Shown here: positions 1 to 20,561 of the stretch, piece by piece | Position numbering within the stretch: position 1 is the first letter of the stretch | How the letters are laid out: each line of letters begins with the position of its first letter | From: a virus | Virus record (IMG/VR): IMGVR_UViG_3300014489_000044 | Coordinates: 1 to 20,561 of that record | Direction: 5' to 3' (one strand) | DNA length: 20,561 nucleotides | Notes under the pieces: model-generated | Database searches by the model: none | Told to the model about the DNA's origin: nothing | The model's input: the letters and a program-made list of their open reading frames with translations, nothing else | Made by a program: the position numbers and the translations under genes

Positions 1-1553
1 GCGACGAGGGCGACGTAATTCTGTCCGCCTACGTTGACCACAGCGCCTACGGCATAGGCTGTCGTATTCAACCACCCAGCGCCAGTCGCAGGCTGGGAGA
101 GAATAACCATAGTCTGCTGCCCTTCCCACTGAACGTAGTCCAGTTCGCAAGGATAGGTTCCGGCAGCAGGAACGCTTACTGAGAATTGAGAATTCCACGC
201 CCCGTGATTGGCGGAATTGTTGTTGACGGCAACGATGGGATATCCCTTCAGCGCCGTCTTGGTCTGAGTCTGTGCGTTGTTGGTTGGACCGCTTACAGGA
301 ACCACCCCACCTCCCATGCCAAAGATGGCACCGTCGTCATTCACCATCTGGAAGGTGTACGTTCCCGCTTCAGAAAATTGAAGGTTGAAGATGACAATCA
401 TGCAGTAGTTCTGCGTTGCACCGCTCCAAATGACAGCGTCAGTTCCATCCCATATGCCACCGGGCGTAACGCCGAAGATTTGCATCGGCTGATCGTTATA
501 GGAATTGGGAGCGCCCGGCAACAATGTACCCGCGCTGCTACCGTTGGGGTTGAATGTGATTGAATCGTTCGCGCCGAGAGTGAATGTCGCAATAGGACCC
601 GGCAGGTTGATGTCGTATCCGTCGCCGGGATAGTCGTATTCGAAGGCACCGGCAAAGGCGTGGTTGTGCGGATAGAAGGTACAGACTGGCGGAGAAGCCA
701 AGCCCACTGCTTGCACCGCACCGCCGATTGAATTGTTGTAGTTGTTGTCGCTGTTCCCAGTGATGGTTATCGTTTCACCTTGGATCAGACCATTAGGTAA
801 TGTGGTTGTAACCGTCACATCCAGCGGAATGACTTCACCGCCAGTGCCTTCGGGCAACCCACTTGCAAGTGTGTCGTAAACGAAGCTCGTAGGGTTGGGA
901 ACAGAAGCGATGGTCTCTTGTCCGTTGTACTGATAGACCGAGTTTCCAGTGATCAAGACATTGTCGCCAACGGATAGACCATGAGGTATAGATGTCACAA
1001 CGGTTACGATGCCGTCGCCATTGGTGATCGAAACTATTGGGATGGGCGGTAAGGGGACGACGTTGACGATGTCGAAGGTTGTTGCTGCGGCGTCCGCGCA
1101 CGGAGGAGTTTCGCCCGGACCTTCCATGGTAAAGCGTTCCCACTTCGTGCCATCGTACCAGCGGGGAATATCCAGACCGACGCTACCATCGGTGACGGCG
1201 ATGTACTCGCGACCGAAAGCGGTCACGGACTTACCTATCGACTTTCCAACGGCCGTAAAGATTTCCGCACCATCGGCACGCATGATTCCGTCAGACGTAA
1301 GCTCAAGCGTGATCGGTACGTTATTGGGCTGGATATAGGATTTGATGTAAGTTACGCCAACGGTACCGTAGGTGGAATGAATTGAAGAGAGAACTTCTCG
1401 GGTATCGCATTCGCCGGGGAGGAAGCGCATGTCCTGACAGTCAGGCGAAAGACCGTGGGGAATTGTCGGACCAGCAAGCTCAGTGTTCAACCCTCCAAAG
1501 AGAGCCCAAGGGAGCTTGGCGCGACCGCTAGGATTTGACGCAGATGCAGGCAT
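1..1553 (-). CDS. Large virion protein with PA14-like region (partial, 3' end off window)
   Basis: The frame is open from the ATG at 1553 to the left edge (517 codons, no stop), so the C-terminus lies outside the window. AGGTGG sits nine bases before the ATG. The N-terminus (LFGGLNTELAGP, then LSPDCQDMRFLPG) has the look of a virion protein type I recall from environmental phages. Residues about 172-290 hold two beta-rich segments with the phage-typical pattern HGLSVGDNVLITGN...YNG. Residues about 325-485 resemble a PA14-type beta domain (AGTYTFQMVNDDGAIFGMGG, then AGTYPCELDYVQWEG). Residues about 493-517 (WLNTTAYAVGAVV...GGQNYVAL) resemble a small carbohydrate-binding module of the CBM5/12 or chitin-binding kind. 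A role in tail or host-surface binding is inferred from these domains and from the neighbouring virion genes. Confidence 0.85.
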   Translation of the reverse strand, partial: MPASASNPSGRAKLPWALFGGLNTELAGPTIPHGLSPDCQDMRFLPGECDTREVLSSIHSTYGTVGVTYIKSYIQPNNVPITLELTSDGIMRADGAEIFTAVGKSIGKSVTAFGREYIAVTDGSVGLDIPRWYDGTKWERFTMEGPGETPPCADAAATTFDIVNVVPLPPIPIVSITNGDGIVTVVTSIPHGLSVGDNVLITGNSVYQYNGQETIASVPNPTSFVYDTLASGLPEGTGGEVIPLDVTVTTTLPNGLIQGETITITGNSDNNYNNSIGGAVQAVGLASPPVCTFYPHNHAFAGAFEYDYPGDGYDINLPGPIATFTLGANDSITFNPNGSSAGTLLPGAPNSYNDQPMQIFGVTPGGIWDGTDAVIWSGATQNYCMIVIFNLQFSEAGTYTFQMVNDDGAIFGMGGGVVPVSGPTNNAQTQTKTALKGYPIVAVNNNSANHGAWNSQFSVSVPAAGTYPCELDYVQWEGQQTMVILSQPATGAGWLNTTAYAVGAVVNVGGQNYVALV

Positions 1554-1656
1554 TGACTAAGTCCACCTCGTAGGACTCGTAGGCACAGGGTGCCGTCTTG
1601 CAACCCAATCCCCCGCCATTGAGCGAGGGAACTACATGGGAAAAACCAACTTTCAT
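1528..1656 (-). CDS. Possible 42-aa Cys-containing small protein
   Basis: A 42-codon frame starts with ATG at 1656 (MKVGFSHVVPSLNGGG) and overlaps the start of the next gene by 26 bases. It has four cysteines (residues 19, 24, 38 and 40), which could bind a metal. The sequence before the ATG is only weakly like a ribosome binding site (TTAAGAA). The frame continues upstream through the antisense of the tRNA-like gene, which argues for the internal ATG if the gene is real at all. I do not recognise it, and it could be chance coding in a gap. Confidence 0.25.
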   Translation of the reverse strand: MKVGFSHVVPSLNGGGLGCKTAPCAYESYEVDLVNACICVKS

Positions 1657-1670
1657 TTTCTTAAGCAGAT

Positions 1671-1745
1671 CGGGGTGTAGCTCAATTACAGAGCAATGTC
1701 CTGCTACGGCATAGGTTGCGGGTAAAAGTCCCGCCACCCCGACCA
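1671..1745 (+). tRNA. tRNA-like gene, anticodon GCT, with altered D- and T-loops
   Basis: It folds as a full cloverleaf with encoded CCA. The acceptor CGGGGTG (1671-1677) pairs with CACCCCG (1735-1741), followed by A and CCA (1742-1745). TA forms positions 8-9. The D-stem is GCTC/GAGC with loop AATTACA. The anticodon stem ATGTC/GGCAT has one G-T pair, and its 7-base loop CTGCTAC gives anticodon GCT (1703-1705). The variable loop is AGGTT, and the T-stem GCGGG/CCCGC has loop TAAAAGT. The reverse complement would carry a C-A mismatch in the anticodon stem, which favours the plus strand. Oddities: the D-loop lacks G18-G19 and the T-loop has TAA in place of TTC, so the usual elbow contact is lost on both sides. 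GCT means serine, but serine tRNAs have a long variable arm and this one has five bases. All protein genes here are on the other strand, and I see no clear promoter for it. Confidence 0.7.
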
Positions 1746-1759
1746 ATTTTGAAACATCT

Positions 1760-2797
1760 TTAGCGGTGGAAGCGTGCCACCATGCGGATGTTGTCATTGA
1801 CAACCCCAGCAGGTGTAGCCCCAGCGGCAAGTTCCGCCATTGGCGATTGTGCGGCGCTGCCAGTGAAAATCTGGATGCTGCCGCCATTGTCGCTCGGGAG
1901 AGTTGCCACCGCCGATGGAACCACGACGCTGTTCACGTCATTGACGGATACGGCACCGGTGTTGGCGAGTACGCGCCCGTTCTGTGCTCCACCGATTGTC
2001 GCCGAAGTGTGGGCCAAAACGTTGCCGTTCGTGACCGAAGTAACGATACTGGTGAAAGATGTGTTAGCAACGAAGTACACGTTGCAGGCTTGGGCACCGT
2101 TGATCAAAAGAATCTGGGCACCGCTTTCGTTCACGATGGTGGTTCCGGCATCGAACACGAACGTCGCCGCGCTGTTGCCTTGCGCGTCCAGCGTGATCGA
2201 GGTCGGAATGTCCAGCGCCGTTGCGCCGAAGTAGGCACCCGGAGTATAGGTAGAAGCCGATGAACCGTTTCCGCCCGTGGCCAGGTCAGCCAGACCCGAC
2301 AGAGTCGGAGTAAGCGCGTTGAAGTAAACGATAGCCGCAGCCAGATCGGTTTGATTCTGCGCCACCGCCGTAACGAACGCCGAAGAGTCCATGAAGGTTA
2401 CATTGGATTCGCCGGTGATGGAGTTGGTTGGGTATGAGCCCACGTTTCCACCAGAGACTGAAGTGGCAGCCGCGAAAGTGACGCCGGAACCGCCAAGGAT
2501 CGAGTAGCTTGCGGTCGAACCGAGGGCTGCGACGTAAGGTGCGTATGCGCCGGAACTTCCGAGGTCTGGATTGTAACGATAGTTGTAGCCGCTATTGCCC
2601 GACTGGTACGAGAAAATGTCAACCGACCAGATGCCGGATGCAAACACCTTGCCGAAAAAGCTGCAAGGAAGACCGCCTGTGGTGTAGTTTCCAGCGGAAA
2701 TGCCGACTTGGAAGAGGTATTCGATGGTGTCGCGGTCAATAGTTGACGCTGCGAAACCGAGAGGTGGTGCGGAAAGAGTTACGACTGAATTAGGCAT
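1760..2797 (-). CDS. Virion protein with DUF3494 (ice-binding-like) domain
   Basis: 345 residues. GGGGAG lies nine bases ahead of the ATG. Residues 1-90 look like a phage structural N-terminus (GISAGNYTTGGLP, YNYRYNP). Residues about 91-294 match the DUF3494 pattern from end to end: ALGSTASYSILGGSGVT, then NSITG, an Ala-rich helical stretch with DLAAAIVYFN, TYTPGAYF, ITLDAQGNSAATFVFDAG, LINGAQACNVYFV and GRVLANTGAVSVNDV. DUF3494 is the beta-solenoid fold of bacterial and microalgal ice-binding proteins, also found in adhesins. Residues 295-345 are a separate tail ending in MVARFHR. The gene follows one copy of the conserved motif at 2855-2866 and sits between a probable adaptor gene and a large virion gene. 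I infer a virion-surface protein. Whether it binds ice, a glycan or nothing cannot be read from the sequence. Confidence 0.85.
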   Translation of the reverse strand: MPNSVVTLSAPPLGFAASTIDRDTIEYLFQVGISAGNYTTGGLPCSFFGKVFASGIWSVDIFSYQSGNSGYNYRYNPDLGSSGAYAPYVAALGSTASYSILGGSGVTFAAATSVSGGNVGSYPTNSITGESNVTFMDSSAFVTAVAQNQTDLAAAIVYFNALTPTLSGLADLATGGNGSSASTYTPGAYFGATALDIPTSITLDAQGNSAATFVFDAGTTIVNESGAQILLINGAQACNVYFVANTSFTSIVTSVTNGNVLAHTSATIGGAQNGRVLANTGAVSVNDVNSVVVPSAVATLPSDNGGSIQIFTGSAAQSPMAELAAGATPAGVVNDNIRMVARFHR

Positions 2798-2854
2798 TAT
2801 TGTTCTCCCCGGAAAAATCTGCCGGATACATTAGTCAGGTGTTACCCTGCTAAG

Positions 2855-2866
2855 AAAAGATACCGA
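2855..2866 (-). promoter_or_regulatory. Conserved motif copy 1 (putative phage promoter)
   Basis: Exact TCGGTATCTTTT on the minus strand. It begins two bases after the stop of the upstream adaptor gene and lies 57 bases before the ATG of the DUF3494 gene. The leader that follows contains a clear ribosome binding site (GGGGAG). Confidence 0.6.
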
Positions 2867-2868
2867 GA

Positions 2869-3660
2869 TTAGAATGAGCGGCGACCAGCGCCACTGCGAC
2901 CGCCGCGTCCGCCATAGGGACGCTTCTGTACGCCACGGCGTTGTTTTTTGCGAACAGTCTGGGTGACGATGAGGTCAAGCTGTTCGTCGGCGATAGCCTT
3001 AGCACCAGCCGATTCCACGTCCTCACGAGCACCCAAGAAGATGAAAGCTGTCATGTAAGCCAGAGCTACACCTAAGCGGCGGAATGGAATGACTGCGGTG
3101 GGTCCGTCAATATCTGGACTGAAACTTACGTAGCGAAGCCTAAGCTGATTAGTCTGCGTAGCACCGGGCAAGAAAATTGTGTCCGTGCGCCAATCCCAGA
3201 AACGGAACTGTTGACCCTGACTGAGCGCCGGAGGAATGCCGTCGTTGGCTGGGGTCACTTGGCAGTAGCCGGTATTAGTGGCGTTCATCACACGTTCGAA
3301 CAAGCGCAACGGGGTGATTAGATCACCGGGAAGAGTTGGAGTGTTGTGTTGGTTGCTACCATCGAAATAACCTGTCTGGGAGATATAGACCTGCACCGAA
3401 GGGTCGGTCGAAGTCACCGGGGTCAGACCGCTGAGGATCACCTCCTTGACGTTGAACTCCACGCCGTTATCAGCCAGATACTGTTCGCACATGCGCTTAG
3501 CAAGCGACATGTACCCCCAAGTTTGTGGCCAATCATCGGTGTAAATTTCACCGCCTGCGGATTCGATAGCATCGTTGACGATCAAGCGCACGAAGTCGGA
3601 GATGACTGACGCTTGGTCGTACACACCCCCAAGGGGCAACTGTTGTGAAACTTTAGGCAC
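2869..3660 (-). CDS. Probable head-tail adaptor / connector protein
   Basis: 263 residues. The start is GTG at 3660, supported by GGGAGG eight bases upstream; the start overlaps the end of the preceding gene by eight bases. The middle is soluble and mixed alpha/beta (LITPLRLFERVM, FWDWRTDTIFLPG, LRLRYVSF). This is followed by a helical part (LGVALAYMTAFIFLGAREDVESAGAKAIADEQLDLIV) and an Arg/Gly-rich basic tail (KKQRRGVQKRPYGGRGGRSGAGRR). An IFLPGATQTNQLRLRY stretch followed by an Ala-rich helix and a basic tail is seen in connector or adaptor-type proteins of podovirus-like phages. The position after capsid and fibre-like genes fits, but the assignment rests on pattern and context only. Confidence 0.6.
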   Translation of the reverse strand: MPKVSQQLPLGGVYDQASVISDFVRLIVNDAIESAGGEIYTDDWPQTWGYMSLAKRMCEQYLADNGVEFNVKEVILSGLTPVTSTDPSVQVYISQTGYFDGSNQHNTPTLPGDLITPLRLFERVMNATNTGYCQVTPANDGIPPALSQGQQFRFWDWRTDTIFLPGATQTNQLRLRYVSFSPDIDGPTAVIPFRRLGVALAYMTAFIFLGAREDVESAGAKAIADEQLDLIVTQTVRKKQRRGVQKRPYGGRGGRSGAGRRSF

Positions 3661-3865
3661 TGGGCGGTCCTCCCGCTGGAGGGTCTTTCTGGGCAGGACT
3701 GTAGGCGTGCGCCGTGATTGTTCCCAGCACGGTCCCGGTAAACGCGACGTATGAAGGGTCGAGCTTGTGGAACCACGAGAGTGCCGTGCCGGTGACGAAC
3801 ACGAACACCGTTATCGGCAGGTGGTAGTCCTTAGCTTCGCTTAGAATTTTGTCAAAGAGTCCCAT
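3653..3865 (-). CDS. Small membrane protein, holin candidate
   Basis: 70 residues, starting MGLFDKILSEAKDYHLP. The frame is open further upstream, but that part overlaps the preceding gene. I choose the ATG at 3865, which lies one base after that gene's stop and has GGTGGG upstream. Two hydrophobic stretches, residues about 17-33 (PITVFVFVTGTALSWFH) and 38-58 (SYVAFTGTVLGTITAHAY), would form a helical hairpin. The tail is short and proline-rich (KDPPAGGPP). Size and topology suit a small class II-like holin, but no lysin gene is visible nearby, and other small virion-associated membrane proteins look alike. Confidence 0.65.
   Translation of the reverse strand: MGLFDKILSEAKDYHLPITVFVFVTGTALSWFHKLDPSYVAFTGTVLGTITAHAYSPAQKDPPAGGPPSA
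3669..3674 (-). promoter_or_regulatory. Ribosome binding site fixing a GTG start
   Basis: GGGAGG on the minus strand lies eight bases before the GTG at 3660. It is inside the 3' end of the membrane-protein gene, so the adaptor gene is probably translationally coupled to it. Confidence 0.7.
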
Positions 3866-3866
3866 G

Positions 3867-5069
3867 TTAGTTACCCACCGTGATCCAGTAGACCGAGCCC
3901 GAAGCATTGTTGATGCTGATGATCGAGCCGGTGTCAGCCGTAGGACCGTAGTTTGCATTCGTGAACGGAGCCGTGAAAGTATTTCCATTGGCTGAATCAA
4001 GCGTGACTGTCTGACCATTCAGGAAGGTTGCCGTGCCGACGCCACTGAAGCTGATCTGCTGACCCACCGCGTAATTTGTGTTGGAGACAATCGTCAACTC
4101 ATTGGAGGTGACAGCCACACTCGCGACTTGACCCGAAGTTCCGTAGGCACTGAGACTGAACGTGGTTGAAGTGAGAGTCTGCGCCGAAACCGGATAAGCC
4201 GCACCAGCGCCTACGAGAGTTGCCTGAACCACGAAGGTGGATGAACTTGTGTAAGCAACTGGTAGGGTGACCGTCACTGTTCCCGCTGCCAAGGTGGCTG
4301 CCCCGCACTGAATGCTCGGTGCCGTAAGGGGCGTGGACGATCCCATGTAAACGGGCGTGCCCACAATCGTGATGATCCCGCCTGACGGGTTCGTGATCGC
4401 TATACCCGGACCGCTGATGAAGTTCGCGACGGTCTGGTCTGAGGTGGGGGTCCCGTTGACTTGTTCGATTGTGCCTGACGTGGATGAGAATGTGATGTTC
4501 CCACCTCCACCGTCTACAATCGACGTGCCGGTTCCGGCAATGAGGTTCTGGACAGTTTGGCTGGATGCAGCCGTCCCATTCACTTTGAATTGCACAGCCG
4601 CTGCCGTGCCAGAAATTGTTATGTTTCCACCATTGGCAGCGACTGTGATGTTCGAGCCTTGCACAATGTTGAGCAACGCTTGATTGCTGAGTGCGACGCC
4701 ATTGGCTTGGAGAGTTACCCCACCCGCAGAGGACGTGACCAGAGCTTGGTCGGCAACGATGTCAATCTGTGCAAGCGTGGAGCCAACGAAGACAATGGTG
4801 TACAGCCCATCTACCGCATAGAACCAACCATTTCCATTTGGGTCCAGCAAGAAAGGATTGGGAAGCGGATCGGCTCCAAGGCTGTCGCTGTAGATCGTCG
4901 CTAGAGGCGAAGCAGATGTTGACCATGAGCCGGGTGTCGTGTATCCCGTTCCATCTTCTGTGGGAAGCGTGATGCCCGATGTCGGCTGGTTGTAAACATA
5001 GCAACTCGCCCCACCCGCTGGGCGGGGGACGTTATCGAGGAGACCTATGTCATAGCGAGAGAGTGGCAT
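3867..5069 (-). CDS. Fibre-like virion protein with triplicate internal repeat
   Basis: 400 residues. AAGGTG lies eight bases before the ATG at 5069. Residues 1-110 form an N-terminal domain (ASCYVYNQPTSG, PLPNPFLLDPNGNGWFYAVD, GLYTIVFVG) of a kind found in phage baseplate or fibre proteins. Residues about 120-236 contain three copies of a roughly 42-residue unit with pattern NG-x3-S-x-Q-x2-x-N-hydrophobic-I-x-G, ending in GGNITI or GGIITI. The remainder is Ser/Thr/Gly/Val-rich with no charged clusters, as expected for a beta-rich fibre, and ends SGSVYWITVGN. No catalytic motif is visible. A tail or head fibre role is inferred from composition, repeats and the surrounding virion genes. Confidence 0.75.
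   Translation of the reverse strand: MPLSRYDIGLLDNVPRPAGGASCYVYNQPTSGITLPTEDGTGYTTPGSWSTSASPLATIYSDSLGADPLPNPFLLDPNGNGWFYAVDGLYTIVFVGSTLAQIDIVADQALVTSSAGGVTLQANGVALSNQALLNIVQGSNITVAANGGNITISGTAAAVQFKVNGTAASSQTVQNLIAGTGTSIVDGGGGNITFSSTSGTIEQVNGTPTSDQTVANFISGPGIAITNPSGGIITIVGTPVYMGSSTPLTAPSIQCGAATLAAGTVTVTLPVAYTSSSTFVVQATLVGAGAAYPVSAQTLTSTTFSLSAYGTSGQVASVAVTSNELTIVSNTNYAVGQQISFSGVGTATFLNGQTVTLDSANGNTFTAPFTNANYGPTADTGSIISINNASGSVYWITVGN
4362..4712 (-). repeat. Three tandem protein repeats within the fibre-like gene
   Basis: Three degenerate copies of about 126 bases encode residues 120-153, 162-195 and 203-236 of the 400-aa protein. Conserved positions are an NG near the start, an S-x-Q, an N followed by two hydrophobics, a G, and a closing GG-x-I-T. 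This is protein-level similarity; the DNA copies have diverged. Confidence 0.7.
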
Positions 5070-5138
5070 TCATTTCACCTTAAGAACGGGGAGACCGAGA
5101 GAAGAGGCCCAGCCTCCCCGCTTCGCACCCGCGTGGAG

Positions 5139-5963
5139 TTACTCGGCGGAGGCGATTCCTTTGAGCGCCGTTCCATCGACGACCACGAGTCCTTCCGCAA
5201 GCGCTGACTCGTAGCGGTCTTTGGAAATCTTTCCGAACTGATACGCCTTCTGCCAGTTGAGGATTGCTCCGCAATGGGGAATCGGGCACTGGACGCAATT
5301 CTGTGGGATAGCTCCACGGCAAGCGGGGCATGTGACCTTTACCTGAGTTACCAAGCACCAAGGTCTCTCGTTGCCGAGTGCCCTGCAAGCTATGCGGTAA
5401 ATCTCAGTGATTTCCTTGCGCTTGAGATAGTCGCCGGTGTCCCAGAGCTTGTCGGCATACTGGATAAGTTCGTCGTACTTGCGGAAAAGGTTAGCCTTCG
5501 CCTCAGCAAGATCGAAATCGAATTCAGGAGTACCGCGCTGGTGAGCCGTCATAAAGACGCCCCACGGACGCAGATCGCATCCGACATCGCCTGACGGGCA
5601 GATGATGTCCATTGCATACAACTTTCCGTCCATCTCGACAGCTTGCATTTTGTATTCGCCGACGTTCGTCCATTGGATTTCGGTTTCATGTACGATGACC
5701 GGAGCGCCAACATCTTCGCCTTCCTTCGGGGGAAGAATGTAGCGCCGCCCCATATAGGACTGGGCGATAGGACCGCAGTTGTAAATCCAGAGGATTTCCT
5801 TCTTAGTTGCGGCGATGGTTGATGGGCTGAGTTTCTGGAATTTGTACGGGCTTCTGCGGGGCGCGGACAAATGAGTTGCTTGCGCTGCGCCGGGATCAAG
5901 ATCGGTAAAGATCGTTTTTCCCGCTGCCCAGATTTGCTTCATTGTTGAAAGTGGATCGGCCAT
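5139..5963 (-). CDS. Conserved-type phage protein with C-terminal zinc-ribbon-like cysteines
   Basis: 274 residues. AGGAG lies ten bases before the ATG at 5963, and the gene follows the 244-aa gene by 16 bases. The N-terminal half includes a segment typical of small beta folds (YNCGPIAQSYMGRRYILPP). Next comes a charged helical part (LAEAKANLFRKYDELIQYADKLW). Near the C-terminus C212, C215, C223, C226 and C231 (TCPACRGAIPQNCVQCPIPHCG) look like a zinc ribbon. The function is unknown to me. Its place two genes after the capsid and its metal-binding end suggest a virion assembly or nucleic-acid-contacting role, but that is only context. There are no membrane segments or signal peptide. Confidence 0.75.
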   Translation of the reverse strand: MADPLSTMKQIWAAGKTIFTDLDPGAAQATHLSAPRRSPYKFQKLSPSTIAATKKEILWIYNCGPIAQSYMGRRYILPPKEGEDVGAPVIVHETEIQWTNVGEYKMQAVEMDGKLYAMDIICPSGDVGCDLRPWGVFMTAHQRGTPEFDFDLAEAKANLFRKYDELIQYADKLWDTGDYLKRKEITEIYRIACRALGNERPWCLVTQVKVTCPACRGAIPQNCVQCPIPHCGAILNWQKAYQFGKISKDRYESALAEGLVVVDGTALKGIASAE

Positions 5964-6791: not shown

Positions 6792-8096
6792 TTAGCTGTT
6801 GTTGTTGCTGCCGAGTGGCAGTGAAGGACTGATTGGAAGACCGTCGAGGTACAGACCAGCGCGGCGGTTGTCCGACGCAAGCTGCCAGTAGGAAATCAGG
6901 AAGGTCATCGTGCTTGGAGCAAGAGACCCGCCGCTTCCGTACTGAGGCCATTCGGTGACGCCACTCCATGCCAGAGGCACAGGGTCGCCGCCACCATCTA
7001 TGACTGAACTTTTCAGCCAGTGATTCAGCATCAAACCGTCCATTCGTCCCGGTTCCGCAGTTAGCGAAATCTTGAGAGGACGACCGACGAAATTCTTCGG
7101 CGCGTCAAACTTAGCAGGATCGACTGAGTTGTTTCCGCTGACCTGATTGAGGATGATTTGCTGAAGTTGAAGACTCAGAGCGTTTACGTTGTATTCCTGA
7201 TCTACGCCGCAATACCAAGTGAAATCGCGGTCCGCTTCAGCGCCGAGAACGAGGCGCATCTTCTGGATGGCACCGTAACCGGCTTCTGTTGTCAGAGCCT
7301 GAGTGCCGAAAGCCACGTGAGGCGTTCGCAGCATTCCTGGAAAATCGCTCAAAAGCAGCCCGAGATAAGAACCGGAGTTACCGGGGTCTTGCTGAATGTA
7401 GGCGAGTCCGTTCAAAGACGTACCCTCACCAGTACCCGGAGCACCAGCGATAAGGATTAGGTCGCCAACCACCGTGCCTGCTGGTAGGGAGGCATTGTAG
7501 ATGGCGATGTGCCCACCAAGAGGGTCAACGGTCAGAACTTGGAAAGTTCCGCGCTGAGTGGCGAAATTGCTCGATACGATTTGATACGTACCATTGCCAC
7601 GAAAGCGGTTGGGGTTCGAGACTGCGAGATAGGCGTTACCTGCCCCGATAGCTTGAACTGTGTCAATCGTTCCGCTGGAATCTTGCTGACACATAACATC
7701 GGTGTAACAGCCAAATTCTTTAAGGGCGTTCTTCAGTTCGCGCTTCGCGAAGCTGTCAACCGCCTGTTCAGAACTTTCGGTTGCAAAAGCCGAATCTAGG
7801 CTCCATCCGGTGCTCTGCACGAAGGCAATTGGGGTGGTTTGAAAGACTTCATAGTCCGAAGCGGTTGGTGTCGGGAAGCCTACAGTGTTGCTCCCATTCA
7901 GCACGGTTTGAGCGAACTGAGAGCCTGAAATCATCTGAACTGGGATACGCATCGCACGAGTAGACACAAGGTCATTCTCGATGCGCTTAATCATGTCCGC
8001 GAAAACTTGTTCGCGAGGGTACAATAGTGCGATTTTGCTGCGAACGCGTTCGTACATTAGCGCCGTGGACTGGTTGAGTGTGTTGGGAATAGCCAT
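6792..8096 (-). CDS. Major capsid protein
   Basis: 434 residues, ATG at 8096 with AGGGG about eleven bases upstream. It directly follows the scaffold gene and is the main soluble, uncharged-surface protein of the head cassette, with no transmembrane or repeat regions. The N-terminal helical part (ALMYERVRSKIALLYPREQVFADMIKRIENDL) leads into MRIPVQMISGSQFAQ and a long mixed alpha/beta body. A late DFTWYCGVDQEYNVNALSLQLQQII and a C-terminal Gly/Ser/Asn tail follow. Length and gene order (portal, scaffold, capsid) fit an HK97-fold coat protein of the P22-like size class. The fold is inferred from position and length rather than from a diagnostic motif. It has its own motif copy and a long structured leader, consistent with a need for high expression. 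Confidence 0.85.
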   Translation of the reverse strand: MAIPNTLNQSTALMYERVRSKIALLYPREQVFADMIKRIENDLVSTRAMRIPVQMISGSQFAQTVLNGSNTVGFPTPTASDYEVFQTTPIAFVQSTGWSLDSAFATESSEQAVDSFAKRELKNALKEFGCYTDVMCQQDSSGTIDTVQAIGAGNAYLAVSNPNRFRGNGTYQIVSSNFATQRGTFQVLTVDPLGGHIAIYNASLPAGTVVGDLILIAGAPGTGEGTSLNGLAYIQQDPGNSGSYLGLLLSDFPGMLRTPHVAFGTQALTTEAGYGAIQKMRLVLGAEADRDFTWYCGVDQEYNVNALSLQLQQIILNQVSGNNSVDPAKFDAPKNFVGRPLKISLTAEPGRMDGLMLNHWLKSSVIDGGGDPVPLAWSGVTEWPQYGSGGSLAPSTMTFLISYWQLASDNRRAGLYLDGLPISPSLPLGSNNNS

Positions 8097-9961: not shown

Positions 9962-10792
9962 TTAGGAGCCGTACTCTGCGCTGCCGTTTTCTTTGAAGAC
10001 CACTTCGCAGGTGAGCTTATCTTTCTTCTCGGTCACTTGGATGATGCCCCCCGGCAGAACTGAATCCTTGGATTCGGGGCGACCCGCAGCACCTTCACCC
10101 TCGCAGTAATTTTGAAGTTGAGTCTCATTGCTGGTGTGGAACACGAGCAGGGTTATTCCGCCTGTACGTGCTTCACAGAGATAATGCTCAATGGCTTCCT
10201 GTGTGCGGTCGCCGAAGTCATTGAGTGATTCGCCGCCCGGCAAAGGATCATCGGGGTTGTCGATGTGGTCTTCGAGCACGTCCTGGTTCTCATCCCTGTC
10301 CGTACCGGCGAGGTCACCAACATCCCAAGGTCTCAGCCTGTAGTCGGAGCACGGTTCGATGCCGAGAGCTTCGCCCACAATCTGTGCCGTCTCCATTGCT
10401 CGTTCAAGGTCGGAGGAGTAGATAGCGACGATGCCCTTGTCTTGCAGGAATTCCGCTGCCTCTTTGGCGTCGGCACGCCCCTTGTCATCCAGCGGCACGT
10501 CGAGAAACCCCCTGAATTTGTTTTCTTCGTTTAGTTCCGTGGTTCCATGCCTCAAACAATAGAGAAGAGTTTTGCCGGGGGACTTGTAGAAGTTGCAGCA
10601 GTCTTCGTCGCGTACTGGCTTGGGCTTGCCGTCTTCGCCGGGAACTTCGGGGTCCAATTGAACGACAGGATGATGGCAATGGTCAGCTTTATACCAGACA
10701 CAATGACCGCACTCGCGAGGAGGCTGGTTGGATTCGCCGGACACAAAGCCGCTCATGGATGCGCCGTCTGCTAAAACCTGTAGGGGATTCAT
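9962..10792 (-). CDS. Histidine phosphatase (phosphoglycerate mutase-like) with Cys-rich N-terminus
   Basis: 276 residues; the ATG directly abuts the portal stop (TAAATG), with GGGG upstream in the portal end. Residues 28-66 hold a metal-site-like pattern (CGHC, then C39-H40, then C65-C66) of a kind I recall in small phage proteins. Residues about 74-270 are a histidine phosphatase domain: LRHGTTELNEENKFRG with catalytic H82, LDDKGRADAKEAAEFL, and SSDLERAMETAQ with R131. The FHTSN with H219 probably supplies the second histidine. Where many members have LRE-x-x-x-G this one has LRPWDVG, so substrate choice may differ. The family removes phosphate from sugars, nucleotides, proteins or other small substrates; the substrate here is unknown. 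Its place between portal and scaffold is unusual and suggests co-expression with head genes rather than a metabolic unit. Confidence 0.85.
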   Translation of the reverse strand: MNPLQVLADGASMSGFVSGESNQPPRECGHCVWYKADHCHHPVVQLDPEVPGEDGKPKPVRDEDCCNFYKSPGKTLLYCLRHGTTELNEENKFRGFLDVPLDDKGRADAKEAAEFLQDKGIVAIYSSDLERAMETAQIVGEALGIEPCSDYRLRPWDVGDLAGTDRDENQDVLEDHIDNPDDPLPGGESLNDFGDRTQEAIEHYLCEARTGGITLLVFHTSNETQLQNYCEGEGAAGRPESKDSVLPGGIIQVTEKKDKLTCEVVFKENGSAEYGS

Positions 10793-13090
10793 TTACTGCC
10801 CCGCTGGTGGAACACCGGCTGGAGCCATGCCTTCTGGAATTGGCTCTGGCGGTTGTGATGCCTGCGCGTGACCAGCCATAGCGGCTTGGGCGCTGGATGC
10901 CGCGATTGCCTTCGACGGGTCTGGGATGCGATCCTGCAACGGCTCCGCCGCGTCTGGTCCTTGCGTCGAAGCGCGGAGGTGCGAGATGGCGTGCAGGCGA
11001 ACGTTCATGAATCCCTTGGGGTTCAAAATCTTTGCCTGTTGTCCTTCGTCCGAGTACATCCAATCCTTGATTGTCTGAATGTGAACCGCGTGATCGTCAA
11101 ACTCGGGATCAATCGGGACGGACGACTGCATCAAGTCTTCCGGTTGCGGCTGCGGGGACGGGTGCCCGGCTACCTGAGTAAGAGTCTGGTGCTGCGCGAC
11201 CTTCTGGAGGTCTTCTTGCGTCGGCGGAATGGGCACACCGTTCAATAGCTGCTTGATTTCGCGAAGCTGTGTGTTGCGCTGGTCCGCACCGGGAACAGAG
11301 AATCCGTTAACGCCGGAAAACTTCTTGAAGAGGTTCTGATTGTTCGGGTCTTGCAATAGCTTCTGCCCAACAGGCGTAGGTCCGATGAACTGGGTGAGCT
11401 GCTGGAAGTTTTGGCGCTGCTGCGAAAACGACTCTGGAATTCCCTCGTCCACTTCAGGTTTGCAGTGGTAGGTTCCGGCGTTGAGCTTCTGGCTGTCGAT
11501 GTCCACGCCCATGTAGCCGCCGAAGTCGTCGGGGATCATTCCGCCGAGGTTGCGCTCGTCCTTTTTCGCCATGTTCACGGCGAGTTCGATCAATTTCGCG
11601 AGGGCGATCTTCAAAGGTCCGTAGCTGATGCCCAACGCTCCCATAGCTTGGTCGCGGGACTGCGCGTACACCGCAGCGGTCTTGCTGTTGACCATGCTGC
11701 CACCGAACAACGACGGCTGTACCTGAGATACCATCTGTGCCTGTGAGCCCATGAGGTCTTTGCACGTAGCGAGTAGGTCTGGAGCCATCGAAGCGGGAGG
11801 TTCTTTGTAGAAAAGGTTGGACATGGCTTCGCCCTTCGGGCGCTTGACGCCTGTCCACATTTCGGGGCTTGCTACTTGGTCTGCTTGAGCATCCACATCA
11901 ATCGCCTGCACGTCCACGAACTTGGTGGGTGCGCCGCGCTCGTAGGTTTCCTGAGCGAGGTTTGAAAGATTGTTGACGCGGCGTTGGATTGGCACGACGA
12001 ACTCCCCGAGACTTGCGACCGCTTGGCCGTCGCCGGGCTGCGGGAGATAGACGATAAGGACATCATCCATGTTCTCGTCAACGGCTTCGATGAACTCGTC
12101 GCCGATGTAGCAGACGCGCACACCGTTCGGCCATGCTTCTTGCAATTGGGCGCGACGCCCATCGTCCTTGCAGGCTTCAAAGGCTTCGGCGCGAATCCAT
12201 GTGTATTGCTCGGTAGCTAGGTTGGCGTAGGTGTCGCCGCTAACCATGAACTCCGTGCCTTGCATCGTCCCCAGACGACAGATGCGATCAAACGCGTCCT
12301 CTCCGGGTCCGCTGCTGTTCTTCTTGATCTTGTCGCGCTTCTCTGGCCACTTGGCCTTGAGCATGTAGACGTTCTGCTCCGTGGCTATCTGCATGTAATG
12401 GAATTCGCTCTGCCAACGCAGGGAAATCGGCACTTTGCCTTCGAGTACGCCGTAGACGCGGGGCACTTGCCGCTTGTACGGCTTCTCGTTCTCGTCCATG
12501 TGGTCGGGATCGTCTTCTTCTTCGAGGCGGATGATCACGCGACCGTCGGTCCATGCCTTCTCGGCGATGTCCTTCAAAAGCTGGTCAACGTTTATGTCGT
12601 GGTAGAAGCGCTTGCGGTACTTCTCGGCTTCGTTGCAGCCGTCGATGTCGTCGATGTTATTGGGATCGCCGGGCAGGAAGCGCACGCCGGGTACCTGACC
12701 AACAAGGGCGGAGATGAGTGACTTGCCCAGCGGCGTGTAGATGTTGGTGACGTAAAAGAAACGGTTCTGATCGCCCTCATCGCCGCCGATGGGGGCGGGG
12801 AGACCGCCAGTATAAGGCACGGCCCAAGCGCCCGAGTCGGCGCTGTAGACCGCGTACTGAAAACCTCTCCAGAAGAAACGCTGCTCACGGGCGCGGATAA
12901 GCTCATGCCTGCGGTTGGGCATCTCTTCAGTTGCAAATTTCTTGATTAGTGTGCGGAGTTCCGCGATGATCTCAGGCGGCGGATCGGCAGACAGAGATGC
13001 ACCTACGTTCGGCTGCTGACTCTCGTCATTACCGCCCGTCTGAGGTGTATTGGACTGTTCTTGAACGTCTTCGTCGATGGCGTCAGCCAT
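10793..13090 (-). CDS. Portal protein
   Basis: 765 residues; AGGGG lies seven bases before the ATG at 13090. After a polar N-terminus (residues 1-40), the body contains FFWRGFQYAVYS, FFYVTNIYTPLGKSLISALVGQVPGV and a charged region. A conserved-looking core follows (FVVPIQRRVNNLSNLAQETYERGAPTKFVD), then MSNLFYKEPPASMAPDLLATCKDLMGSQAQMVSQVQPSLFGG, then SKTAAVYAQSRDQAMGALGISYGPLKIALAKLIELAVN, which would be the long stem and crown helices. The C-terminal HAVHIQTIKDWMYSDEGQQAK plus NVRLHAISH recurs in large phage portals. The size fits the P22-like (about 700-800 residue) class. It forms the dodecameric DNA channel at the packaging vertex and binds the terminase. The Pro/Ala-rich end is low complexity. 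Confidence 0.9.
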   Translation of the reverse strand: MADAIDEDVQEQSNTPQTGGNDESQQPNVGASLSADPPPEIIAELRTLIKKFATEEMPNRRHELIRAREQRFFWRGFQYAVYSADSGAWAVPYTGGLPAPIGGDEGDQNRFFYVTNIYTPLGKSLISALVGQVPGVRFLPGDPNNIDDIDGCNEAEKYRKRFYHDINVDQLLKDIAEKAWTDGRVIIRLEEEDDPDHMDENEKPYKRQVPRVYGVLEGKVPISLRWQSEFHYMQIATEQNVYMLKAKWPEKRDKIKKNSSGPGEDAFDRICRLGTMQGTEFMVSGDTYANLATEQYTWIRAEAFEACKDDGRRAQLQEAWPNGVRVCYIGDEFIEAVDENMDDVLIVYLPQPGDGQAVASLGEFVVPIQRRVNNLSNLAQETYERGAPTKFVDVQAIDVDAQADQVASPEMWTGVKRPKGEAMSNLFYKEPPASMAPDLLATCKDLMGSQAQMVSQVQPSLFGGSMVNSKTAAVYAQSRDQAMGALGISYGPLKIALAKLIELAVNMAKKDERNLGGMIPDDFGGYMGVDIDSQKLNAGTYHCKPEVDEGIPESFSQQRQNFQQLTQFIGPTPVGQKLLQDPNNQNLFKKFSGVNGFSVPGADQRNTQLREIKQLLNGVPIPPTQEDLQKVAQHQTLTQVAGHPSPQPQPEDLMQSSVPIDPEFDDHAVHIQTIKDWMYSDEGQQAKILNPKGFMNVRLHAISHLRASTQGPDAAEPLQDRIPDPSKAIAASSAQAAMAGHAQASQPPEPIPEGMAPAGVPPAGQ

Positions 13091-14546: not shown

Positions 14547-16172
14547 TTACCTCGATGGTCGTCCAAAACTGCGCGGTTTACCGAAGACAATGCCGTTTCC
14601 GCGTTTCTTTTCTGCGCGTAGACGCAAGTCAACGAACAATTTTTCATTACCGTTGGTACACTGGCTCAAAATCTTCTGTCGGCGCATCTCAAATGACGTT
14701 TTTCCCGCAGCGAGTTGCGATTTCAGTGTGTAGCGGCATCCGTCATAGATGTCGTCGTTCTTTGTCTTCGTCTTTTTGACGTCCTCGTCGTTTTTTTCGT
14801 CCCTTTGCATTCGCGGGATGGCTTCGATCAATTCATCGCACTCGGAAGAGATGAGGAGCTTGGAATTCGGGCGACTGGACAGCATTTCGTCCATGAGACG
14901 CGCCCCTCCGACGCGGTCGTCGTCGGCTACGGTCGGATAGGGAAGCTTGTAATGGCTCAGGGTGTTGCCTATTTCCTCAGCGATGGTGTTCTGGCTCGTG
15001 CGCTTAGCCCAGCAGTCGGGGGACAGGAAGATTTCCGCGATGTTCTCCTGTTGTTCGTTCCCGTCGGAGTCGATGTAGACGCACTCCTTGGCGATAAGCT
15101 CGGCAAGCTCTGCTTCGCCGGTCTTGTTGACTACCATCTCGCGATAAATCAGCGTGGCTTCGTACTCGTCGCCGTTCTCGTCGGGCAAAGTGACCTTGGA
15201 TGCCCAGAACACGGCGCAGTGGTGCTGGTATCCCCAGTCGATTCCTATCCACTTGTCGTGGTGATGCTGACGGCGGGTGAGATTGACGGCGCTGAAGTAG
15301 ACGGAGAACAGTTTTTCGTACACGCAAACCGCAGGATCGAAGCGCTCGAAGAACATCCCGGCGACTGTGTCCCAAGAACCGTAAAGGTATCGTGCTTTCC
15401 AATCGGATGATGCCGATTCAAGCGTGCTGATGTACTCTTGGTCATCCTTGTACGCCGGATTGTCGTACACCGACGAGAAGATGTAGGAGTAACGGCTCGG
15501 ATCGTACTTCGTGATTCTCTTGTGGGTATATTTCTGGGCGATTTCAAAGTTGCGGACTAGTTTTCCCGATTCGTCCTTCTTGCCGATGAACAACGCCTCG
15601 ATCCAGTCGGAGCCGATTCCTCCGGGGTTACTCGCTAGAGCCATGCACGGCACCACCGGTCTGCCGTCCTTGTCTTCCTTGATCGGGCAGCGGTTCTGGA
15701 GGGTGAGGTACTGGAACATCTCATAGGTCCACTCCGTGGCTTCGTCGATTCCGATGAAGACGTATTCGCCGCCGTTGTAGGTGTAGACATCGTGTTCGTG
15801 TTGGCACGTGCCGAACCAGAGCTTGGAGCCGTTGCGGAAGGTGACGACATGGTCGTTGTGGTTCCACGAGCGAGGGCCGCCGTAGTAGGACGATGGAACC
15901 TTTTTCTCGAAGTGATCCATCAACGTTTTCTGTAGGTCGGGATAGGTACGACGCAGCAACAGGACGTTGCAGCCGGGGATGCGTTGACAGAATTCCATCG
16001 CTTCCCAGAGAAGGCAGAGAGATTTGCCACCGCCCTTAGCGCCGCCGTAGAGACGGTACTTCGCTGGGTTCTTGTGGAACTCTATCTGCTTATCGGATGG
16101 GTTGTAGGCGAGTTTGCCGTCTACATAAACCGCGTATGGGTTGTTGGGTATTGCCTTCGCGAATTTCGACAT
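14547..16172 (-). CDS. terL: Terminase large subunit
   Basis: 541 residues. The ATPase domain has Walker A GGAKGGGKS (residues 43-51), Walker B VFIGIDEAT (138-146, with catalytic E144) and the coupling motif ALASNP (178-183). The nuclease domain shows the RNase H-like acidic residues: D312 in WIGIDWG, D386 in LSPDCW, and D474/D477 in NDDIYDG. The motor drives DNA through the portal and cuts it at start and end of packaging. The ATG at 16172 is three bases after the stop of the upstream gene. The protein is of full length for the family, so no part is missing. The frame's last codons carry the ribosome binding site of the next gene. Confidence 0.95.
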   Translation of the reverse strand: MSKFAKAIPNNPYAVYVDGKLAYNPSDKQIEFHKNPAKYRLYGGAKGGGKSLCLLWEAMEFCQRIPGCNVLLLRRTYPDLQKTLMDHFEKKVPSSYYGGPRSWNHNDHVVTFRNGSKLWFGTCQHEHDVYTYNGGEYVFIGIDEATEWTYEMFQYLTLQNRCPIKEDKDGRPVVPCMALASNPGGIGSDWIEALFIGKKDESGKLVRNFEIAQKYTHKRITKYDPSRYSYIFSSVYDNPAYKDDQEYISTLESASSDWKARYLYGSWDTVAGMFFERFDPAVCVYEKLFSVYFSAVNLTRRQHHHDKWIGIDWGYQHHCAVFWASKVTLPDENGDEYEATLIYREMVVNKTGEAELAELIAKECVYIDSDGNEQQENIAEIFLSPDCWAKRTSQNTIAEEIGNTLSHYKLPYPTVADDDRVGGARLMDEMLSSRPNSKLLISSECDELIEAIPRMQRDEKNDEDVKKTKTKNDDIYDGCRYTLKSQLAAGKTSFEMRRQKILSQCTNGNEKLFVDLRLRAEKKRGNGIVFGKPRSFGRPSR

Positions 16173-18305: not shown

Positions 18306-20561
18306 CTATTCCTCGGTCCATTCCACGAAGCCGGACAACGTGCATCCCGCCGAGAAGAAAAATGCCATGTTGTACCCGGAGCGCAGGAGGTACGGCTGTC
18401 TCCCGACGCCGTCGCCCAGGACCTCCTCGTAAACCGCGTTTGCCGAACTGAGAATGGTGGTGGTGGCCATGGTGACGAACGGTATGACATTGAGCTGGAT
18501 TTGCGTGCCGCCGCCGCCGGTGGCGAGAGCGCCGTACAGGTAGATCGCGCTCGTGGGCGCGGGACCGCTGGTGTCCATGCTGAACGTGTTGTAAAGATAC
18601 GAAGTTCCTCCCGTCCATGCGGCGCTTTGCGATGCCACGGTCATCGCCACGTAAGCCTGCGTCGCTGTTGTCAGCTGGAACCGCAGTTTCGTGACCTTGG
18701 TCAGTTTGCTCGTGCTGCCATAGAAAACGACCCCCGGGAATGTCGCCGACGCAAGCTGCGCATTGCTGAACGGGACCCTGAATGTGCTCTTGCGGCCTTC
18801 CGTGCTCACGAGCAACGAGCCACGGACGTCTCCCTGGATGCCCACGGACTGGCCGGTCGTCAAGGTTGGCGCGGTCGTGTTGAAAGTGTCGCTGACCGCC
18901 AACGCGTTGGCCGGGGCCGTGGCCGCTGTTATCGCGCTGTCGAGACTCGCGCCCGCGTGCCCGACGATGCCGACTTCCTGCACGCCTGCCGCCGCCGTGA
19001 CCACAGCCGCACCAGCCACGGCCTGCAGATCGTGGTTGATCGCGCCGTGGATGTCGGTGACGGCGAGGACTTGATCTCCGCTCGTGTAAGTCAGGTTGGC
19101 GTAGGCGGACTCCGCGATGAATCCAAGCACGCCCAAATTGTCGGCGATTGGCGCGGCGCTGTTGTTGGTCAGGTTCCCGGCGACCGTCACCGTGTTGGTG
19201 ACAGTCGTGGACGCAAGGGTGATCGCCCCCGAAATGACCCACGGACTTGTTGATTGCGTGACGGCGATAGTGGTGTTGGAAAATGCGACGGTGCCGGATA
19301 CGACCCACGGCGATGTCGATTGAGTGACTGCGACCGTGGCTGGGAAATTCGAGACCGCCACTGTTCCGCTTACGGGCTGCGTGGCCTGCCAGAAGGTTCC
19401 TGTGACAGGGACGGTGTTGGTCACATCGACATTGACGGTGGATGCGATGCTGACTGGCTGCGTAGCCTGCCAAAATGTCCCCGTGACCGCCACGCTTCCG
19501 CTGACGGCTACCGTGCCGCTGACTACCCATGGCGACGTTCCCTGCAACGCGGTCACTGTTCCGCTGACGGCTTGCGTCGCCGGGAAGTTGTTGACCGCGA
19601 CAGTCCACGCGCCGCTCTGCGCGGCCTGCACCGCGAACGTGCCGGTGTTCGTGACAGCGATTGTCGTGTTGGAAAATGCGACAGTGCCCGTGACGGTCAC
19701 GGCACCGGAGACGACCCATGGCGATGTGGATTGCGTGACAGCGACTGTTCCTGTGATCGTCGTGCTGGTGGGGAAATTCGAGACCGCGACTGTTCCGCCG
19801 ACCGCGAATGTGCCGGTCCCCGCGTTGGCCGTCACGGTGCCGCCCACGACCCAAGGCGATGTTCCCTGCAAGGCCGTGACAGTGCCGGACACGGGCTGCG
19901 TCCCCGGGTTGGCGACGATGGCGGCGGCGATTGACGCGGCGGACACCACGTTCGTCTGGAAGGCGTTAACGGCGGGGACAAGCGCCGCCGCCGGTGTCGA
20001 GCCGTAGGCCACCACGGCGGTCAAGCCGAGGGCCGCGCCCGCGACTTCCGTGAGGTTGACCGCGCCCAACGGAAGGGCCGAGAGCGAAACGGCCACGGTG
20101 TTCGTGACGTAGGCGTTGACGCCCTGGACATTGATCGAGCCGGGGCTTGTTCCGTAGGCGGACGGCGAACCCAGTCCCACCGAGTTGAGTTCCGTCAGGT
20201 TGACCGCACCCAGCGGTAATGACGCCAATGTCACGGGCTGGGCGATGGAGTTGAAGCTTACGATTTGCGAAGCGGGGAAGTTGCTGACCTGAATAGAGGT
20301 GTTGGAGAATGCGACAGTCCCAGAAACCGTGACCGCACCCGCGACGTTGAAAGTTCCTGTGCCTGCGTTGGCTGTGACGGTGCCGGTGATAGCAGGCAGA
20401 GAAGAGACCGCGACGGTTCCTGTCACCGCGATGCTGGAATTCAAAATGTTCGCGTTGACGCCTATTACATTTCCTGTTAGCGGTGCGATTCCCCATGCCG
20501 TGGGTGATCCCAGACTGATGGAATTCCATTCCGTGATGTTTGCCGCGACGCCACCACCAGC
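18306..20561 (-). CDS. Long repeat-rich fibre-like protein (partial, 5' end off window)
   Basis: At least 752 residues; no stop or credible start occurs up to the right edge. An internal TTG at 20444 would give 712 residues, but the frame stays open upstream and the extra 39 codons repeat the same unit, so the true start is outside. From about 19962 to the edge there are three copies of a unit with V-N-L-T-E, L-G-S-P-x-A-x-G and a later V-N-A. From 19904 to 19185 there are five copies of TSPWVVSG-type units with SNFPAT, TGTFWQATQPVSG and SNTTIAVT between them. A non-repeated region follows, and the last 170 residues are the domain shared with the 265-aa protein, ending EWTEE. This layout is common in phage fibre or tail-surface proteins. 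Host binding is inferred. Confidence 0.85.
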   Translation of the reverse strand, partial: AGGGVAANITEWNSISLGSPTAWGIAPLTGNVIGVNANILNSSIAVTGTVAVSSLPAITGTVTANAGTGTFNVAGAVTVSGTVAFSNTSIQVSNFPASQIVSFNSIAQPVTLASLPLGAVNLTELNSVGLGSPSAYGTSPGSINVQGVNAYVTNTVAVSLSALPLGAVNLTEVAGAALGLTAVVAYGSTPAAALVPAVNAFQTNVVSAASIAAAIVANPGTQPVSGTVTALQGTSPWVVGGTVTANAGTGTFAVGGTVAVSNFPTSTTITGTVAVTQSTSPWVVSGAVTVTGTVAFSNTTIAVTNTGTFAVQAAQSGAWTVAVNNFPATQAVSGTVTALQGTSPWVVSGTVAVSGSVAVTGTFWQATQPVSIASTVNVDVTNTVPVTGTFWQATQPVSGTVAVSNFPATVAVTQSTSPWVVSGTVAFSNTTIAVTQSTSPWVISGAITLASTTVTNTVTVAGNLTNNSAAPIADNLGVLGFIAESAYANLTYTSGDQVLAVTDIHGAINHDLQAVAGAAVVTAAAGVQEVGIVGHAGASLDSAITAATAPANALAVSDTFNTTAPTLTTGQSVGIQGDVRGSLLVSTEGRKSTFRVPFSNAQLASATFPGVVFYGSTSKLTKVTKLRFQLTTATQAYVAMTVASQSAAWTGGTSYLYNTFSMDTSGPAPTSAIYLYGALATGGGGTQIQLNVIPFVTMATTTILSSANAVYEEVLGDGVGRQPYLLRSGYNMAFFFSAGCTLSGFVEWTEE
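19185..19904 (-). repeat. Tandem fibre repeats
   Basis: Interspersed units encode TSPWVVSG, AVSNFPAT, FWQATQPVSG and AFSNTTIAVT. Five TSPWV copies are present, at spacings of about 22-75 residues. DNA copies are close to each other in places (for example the repeats around 19250-19340 and 19660-19760), so recombination between copies and assembly errors are both possible. Confidence 0.75.
19962..20561 (-). repeat. Three VNLTE...GSP...VNA units in the fibre gene
   Basis: Three copies of a roughly 45-residue unit: residues 126-161 and 78-111 counted from the TTG at 20444, and a third just upstream of that TTG (NITEWNSISLGSPTAWG). The third copy continues to the window edge, which shows the gene extends beyond it. 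Confidence 0.75.

Follow-up and report, generated by a model that had tools for sequence, protein, structure and literature searches.

Organisation of the locus

The window, by which we mean the whole 20,561-nucleotide stretch of DNA that was analysed, is a linear IMG/VR record in which all of the long genes are carried on the minus strand. It was found whole, at 100% identity, inside a longer contig of 38,888 bases, and this duplication makes the gene arrangement independent of any one assembly. The gene studied here encodes a protein of 345 aa and occupies positions 1760..2797; it lies on the minus strand, the one point on which the first-pass annotation needs correcting. Its assignment is based on the open reading frame, a match of its product to PF11999 (described below) and an identical copy in the longer contig. 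A Shine-Dalgarno-like GGGGAG (2805..2810, minus), identified by direct reading, precedes its ATG by 7 nt.

The gene is surrounded by genes of particle assembly. The terminase large subunit (14547..16172, minus) was recognised by both PF03237 (E=3.8e-8) and phrog_979 (E=1.5e-39). A 434-aa product (6792..8096, minus) is the probable major head protein; it has homologues in three DUF3494-carrying viral contigs, L065, L067 and L081, and the L081 homologue matched the major head protein family phrog_14242 over its length (E=5e-8). The 765-aa product of 10793..13090 (minus), judged from its size and position, is probably a portal; it has homologues in the same three contigs and in that of L037, and gave zero matches in the family libraries or the PDB. 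Directly upstream of the 345-aa gene lies an open reading frame of 263 aa (2869..3660, minus), whose sole match, phrog_15790 at E=0.02, is not a confident family assignment and which may, from its position, encode a head-tail adaptor. The downstream gene (1..1553, minus) is cut by the end of the window; in the longer contig its product reaches 1,047 aa or more. It probably encodes a large virion or tail protein with a PA14-like stretch, as judged from its match to the virion structural protein family phrog_3287 (E=4e-4) and from its homologues, which sit 3' of the DUF3494 genes in L037, L062 and L087; the name 'nozzle-like' might suit it. Profiles of the head protein, the portal and the downstream gene product found nothing in the PDB.

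The 345-aa gene thus belongs to a one-strand head/tail cluster together with the terminase, the probable portal and the probable major head protein. Its placement in a virion gene cluster, as first proposed from the letters of the sequence, was upheld directly by the terminase, through a homologue by the major head protein, and by the same-strand layout. Since the gene is on the same strand as this morphogenesis cluster and within it, we infer that the 345-aa protein is part of the virion.

Several other features of the region were recorded. The gap that separates the DUF3494 gene from the downstream gene contains, on the plus strand, a tRNA-Ser(GCT) gene (1671-1745; ARAGORN, Rfam 58.8 bits). 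Within the head cluster, a histidine-phosphatase gene (9962-10792, minus; PF00300, E=4.5e-34) is situated between the probable portal and a probable scaffold gene; three further viral contigs with DUF3494 (L024, L067 and L079) have homologues of it. The PA14-like stretch corresponds to residues 377-487 of the downstream gene product and is common to the 1.6-kaa DUF3494 proteins of L012 and L017; it is also present in gp19 ('head decoration protein') of Tunturiibacter phage Tunturi_3, the sole cultured-phage match found. A single family uniting the downstream gene product with the 1.6-kaa DUF3494 proteins was considered, and was not clear beyond the PA14-like stretch. A 712-aa protein (18306-20444, minus), for which a family match was absent, contains many degenerate 'SGTVAVxxFPAxVAVTQSTSPWVV' repeats and is probably a fibre-like virion protein. 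The far end of the longer contig (L177:17746-18888) encodes a protein of HAF repeats whose N-terminus is of the export type, and this end of the contig may be host DNA. HAF repeats are common in Acidobacteriota, a hint that the host is perhaps a member of that phylum.

Identification of a complete DUF3494 domain

PF11999 (Ice_binding, formerly DUF3494) matched residues 100-286 of the 345-aa protein over profile positions 1-203 of 208, with a score of 91.8 bits against a cut-off of 28.7 (E=6.2e-26). A PHROG search with the same protein gave zero family matches, while a sequence search of the PDB retrieved 18 matches, all of them DUF3494-type ice-binding proteins (best E=4.7e-19). In an AlphaFold2 model built from 49 aligned sequences, residues 90-290 were mostly predicted at pLDDT >90 and the flanks mostly at pLDDT <50. 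The predicted strands and a long helix (residues 146-160), at pLDDT >90, follow the order of the DUF3494 fold, and the model forms a discontinuous beta-solenoid with the long helix alongside. Foldseek comparison with the PDB returned 31 ice-binding-protein chains at E <= 1.6e-8, beyond which there was noise; the best match was 7bwy (E=3.7e-12, target-normalised TM 0.87).

The agreement of the HMM, PDB, AlphaFold and Foldseek results therefore establishes that residues 91-294 (1916..2527, minus) are a real and complete DUF3494 domain. The DUF3494 pattern that the first-pass annotation had read over these residues was confirmed by both of the routes it had proposed, a Pfam search and a structure prediction compared with solved ice-binding proteins. 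Membership of the NCBIfam equivalog IBP_CFB (NF045625) does not extend to this protein, which scored 41.7 bits against a required score of >400.

The flanks of the domain and the carrier protein

Two other DUF3494-carrying viral contigs, L037 and L062, encode a free-standing protein of 125-129 aa just upstream of the DUF3494 gene, and the DUF3494 protein itself ends in a second copy of this small protein (its C-terminal ~128 aa). A profile of this protein, termed here the carrier, was built from the four copies (one free-standing and one fused from each contig). When the two flanks of the window protein were joined (residues 1-90 and 295-345) and compared with this profile they scored 17.5 bits, a value that none of 20,000 shuffled versions of these residues attained (best 9.7), and hhalign gave a probability of 95.9 for the pair. 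The whole 345-aa protein scored more weakly (E=0.025 among all open reading frames) and was the top match outside the carrier family. The first flank (2528..2797, minus) is supported by its profile match to the free-standing protein, and the second (1763..1915, minus), which is weak alone, by being collinear with it. The two align in order along the carrier, with a gap between the equivalents of GYxYHYSP and DxLQI. Strands 77-82 and 87-92 of the AlphaFold model of the free-standing carrier (mean pLDDT 74) flank the position of this gap, which would place the DUF3494 insertion in the turn between them.

The flanks thus look, from these alignments, as if together they made up a single beta domain of ~130 aa that has been split in two, and the DUF3494 domain appears, on the geometry of the predicted model, to be inserted at the tip of a hairpin in a small protein of the virion cluster. 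The earlier view of a DUF3494 domain joined to a phage-type N-terminus in a virion cluster therefore stands as to the fusion and the cluster, and has to be amended as to the partner, which is made up of both flanks and not of the N-terminus alone. As a query, the N-terminal 96 residues alone retrieved only the duplicate contig, and the N-terminus gave no library family match. A fold search with the carrier yielded no significant PDB match; one borderline match was to a haloarchaeal tailed-virus protein (E=1.3e-3, TM 0.5-0.6).

Three more phages with the carrier were found by a further scan, each with a carrier-DUF3494 fusion, so that the carrier is fused C-terminal to DUF3494 in five other phages (L037, L062, L087, L089 and L090), four of which also have a free-standing copy. 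The L037 contig encodes, in addition, a relative of the portal-type gene of the window (E=5e-115). The shared carrier and shared neighbours point to two topologies of the same pair of domains, nested in the window and tandem in the other phages. In L062 and L087 (positions ~400-5,900), genes for sugar-nucleotide enzymes and a glycan-synthesis-like cassette are located directly upstream of the carrier/DUF3494 genes.

Recurrence of DUF3494 on viral contigs

A survey of viral contigs for similar fusions, as had been recommended at the outset, revealed that DUF3494 recurs far beyond the window. When viral contigs were scanned with an alignment of the domain, at least 196 IMG/VR stretches were confirmed to encode it; the best 80 of these were kept, and a count over 50 records gave up to five DUF3494 domains per record. 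The N-termini of the proteins that carry it are unrelated to each other, and DUF3494 proteins of ~400 aa and ~1,630 aa occur on the same contigs. In L058, a single uninterrupted open reading frame of 2,576 aa matched both Baseplate_J (E=7e-19) and Ice_binding (E=3e-34), as well as the baseplate wedge subunit family phrog_6 (E=9e-34), and L059 has the same combined form. A terminase or baseplate-wedge match was present in 26 of the 50 records (PF03237, phrog_979 and phrog_6; union counted by hand). The domain is thus borne by several unrelated proteins, among them the baseplate-J product, the carrier in its split and fused forms and the ~400-aa and ~1,630-aa proteins, and most of these partners probably have a role in the virion. 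Four of the contigs (L050, L061, L071 and L074) encode proteins that resemble ordinary exported bacterial proteins, and IMG/VR may include cellular DNA.

No cultured phage with the domain was found. Three of the DUF3494 proteins gave no tblastn match in 50,697 phage records, a collection that offers no positive control for these negative results. A PF11999 match was absent from Tunturi phages 1-5. Synechococcus phage S-SKS1 has been named among the viral homologues of an ice-binding-like protein (PMC11515562); this was not reproduced, as the whole record (HQ633071) had no PF11999 match.

Export signals and ancestry of the domain

Export-type N-termini were scored by a rule requiring a 12-residue hydrophobic stretch, preceded by K/R, within the first 60 aa. 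In the sampled sets, 69 of 86 cellular DUF3494 proteins carried such an N-terminus, compared with 6 of 76 viral ones, and the cellular proteins that failed the rule mostly look like over-long start calls. By the same rule the 345-aa protein of the window has no signal peptide.

A tree of 158 domains placed the window domain in a phage-only clade of 17 (SH-aLRT 100, bootstrap 100), which was recovered with support of 100/99 in a careful tree of 34; its own branch measured 0.77 changes per column. The viral label must change 13-14 times on the tree, against about 52 times with shuffled labels, and at least six of the changes are forced by supported branches, although such counts leave gains and losses indistinguishable, and different patterns were used to gather the cellular and the viral samples. 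Grouping of the window domain in one clade with the carrier-fused domains of the five phages named above was rejected (AU p=0.004, 34 rows), which indicates that one carrier has combined with DUF3494 domains of two lineages. The closest sampled cellular domains were ~40% identical to the window domain and the closest viral ones, among the best 80 of 196, were 53% identical. Mimicry of a host surface protein, one of the roles initially envisaged, found no support in these distances or in a phage-only clade.

Composition of the putative ice-binding face

The ice-binding site of AnpIBP is its B-face, formed by six strands with four outward residues each, in which Ser153 and Thr156 are critical (PMC7277481). 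The equivalent strands of the window domain are SGVTFA, TALDIP, TTIVNE, TSFTSI, TSATIG and GAVSVN. Ala, Gly, Ser or Thr fill 18 of their 24 outward positions (75%), with Thr at both of the positions equivalent to Ser153 and Thr156, and Asp, Pro, Glu and Ile take up four of the others. Across the window clade these four small residues make up 88% of the B-face compared with 49% elsewhere in the domain. Ice attachment of the particle, as proposed in the first-pass annotation, thus gains from a flat face of the ice-binding type that has been kept, and from the solved DUF3494 structures found, all of which, apart from generic depositor names, are named as ice-binding or antifreeze proteins; several near cellular relatives are, moreover, permafrost, palsa or fen MAGs by title. 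The proposal loses, however, from the same face being equally kept in 83 sampled cellular domains (86%), many from ordinary non-icy soil, with sources that include soil Streptomyces, Nonomuraea deserti and Streptomonospora (Actinomycetota). The B-face therefore belongs to the family as a whole and fails to tell ice binders from the rest, and PF11999 is among the abundant Pfams in soils generally (PMC11237643). Furthermore, the window clade has Asp at b2-4 (10/17), Pro at b2-6 (12/17) and Glu at b3-6 (10/17), where the cellular domains have mostly Gly, Thr or Ala. Ice binding by the window domain is accordingly possible on its sequence, and a displayed domain that tethers the virion to crystals, keeps it in unfrozen host-rich films or protects it during freeze-thaw is an explanation that we regard as plausible, yet doubtful.

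Discussion

The DUF3494 domain of the window is, in our judgement, probably a promiscuous virion-display domain that was inserted into a carrier and acts as a surface adhesion module. The beta-solenoid would interrupt a hairpin at the surface of the carrier, a small beta-sandwich, and the carrier would dock close to the tail or neck of the particle, a location suggested by its being encoded beside a large tail-type gene. The solenoid would then project outward and offer its flat Thr/Ser/Ala-rich face for adhesion, and particles held in this way on a surface (ice, minerals, polysaccharide or the host envelope) might meet more hosts. Phages would repeatedly take up DUF3494 and attach it to various exposed particle proteins, as they do with Ig-like domains. 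The split of the carrier and its union with separate DUF3494 lineages, two elements of this proposal, are supported by the shuffling and AU statistics given above.

Among known systems, the window domain resembles the DUF3494 ice-binding proteins (AnpIBP 7bwx, EFR/6eio, FfIBP and TisAFP) over the whole domain, in fold (TM up to 0.87), conserved motifs and the Thr/Ser/Ala-rich B-face, and differs from them in lacking a signal peptide, in being inserted in a phage protein and in the Asp, Pro and Glu that its clade carries on the B-face. Bacterial ice adhesins, such as SfIBP_1, bear DUF3494 or RIV domains on stalks of Big domains, as discussed in PMC9957290, and there too a solenoid is the binding tip borne by another protein; they are, however, cell-anchored and exported, whereas the window solenoid is carried by a phage protein without an export signal. 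The Ig-like display domains of tailed phages are likewise single compact beta domains found on many unrelated particle proteins, sometimes inserted and several per genome, although DUF3494 has a different fold, a beta-solenoid with a capping helix. Three Arctic sea-surface vOTUs likewise carry PF11999 on viral contigs, as ice-binding-like auxiliary genes proposed for host cryoprotection (PMC11515562), in contrast to the window, where DUF3494 is embedded in virion-type proteins and a structural cluster. No description of DUF3494 as part of phage particle proteins was found in the open-licence literature searched, and what we describe looks like a known domain that phages employ as a promiscuous display module, a use not described before in those papers.

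Besides ice, the target of a displayed domain could be the host itself, with DUF3494 acting on the tail or neck as a receptor-binding or host-surface adhesion module for a glycan or protein ligand. The adjoining tail-type genes, the occurrence of the domain within a baseplate protein, the several copies in different proteins of one contig and the divergent branch of the window domain are all in keeping with such a role. On the other hand, domains of one clade are spread over N-terminally unrelated proteins, no lectin-like or hypervariable site was identified, and we know of no established glycan receptor role for DUF3494. We therefore hold this explanation to be tenable though on balance improbable, much as we do ice binding. 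Somewhat less likely still is a solenoid that has no ligand and serves as a stabiliser or rigid spacer, in the manner of many neutral Ig-like insertions: the promiscuity with which the domain enters unrelated proteins would suit such a part, as would the alignments of DUF3494 domains, in which no conserved catalytic or metal site was seen, but the enrichment of small residues on the flat face exceeds what a spacer needs, even if it is a property of the whole fold family. That the gene is an auxiliary 'moron' encoding an ice-binding protein for host cryoprotection, as published for PF11999 on polar viruses (PMC11515562), is very improbable, since the rarity of export signals among the viral proteins, the window protein included, speaks against that reading at least in the phages sampled, as do the insertion of the domain in phage proteins and in a baseplate-wedge open reading frame and the position of the gene within a structural cluster.

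Display of DUF3494 on the virion as an adhesion module is thus the interpretation that we prefer. An extension of it to ecology, which we put forward as speculative and rather unlikely, would be that, where habitats are cold or freeze seasonally, tailed phages have particles that adhere to ice, having gained DUF3494 several times on baseplate, tail and neck proteins, and that virions are thereby tethered to ice or to the freeze-concentrated films where hosts gather. On viruses, DUF3494 has so far been read as an accessory gene for the host. If our interpretation is true, the domain has been built repeatedly into particle proteins, with several copies per phage, and would constitute a new class of virion display module, which raises the question of whether some phage particles stick to ice. 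Should the target be something other than ice, the label 'ice-binding' would be too narrow for what is a very common soil domain.
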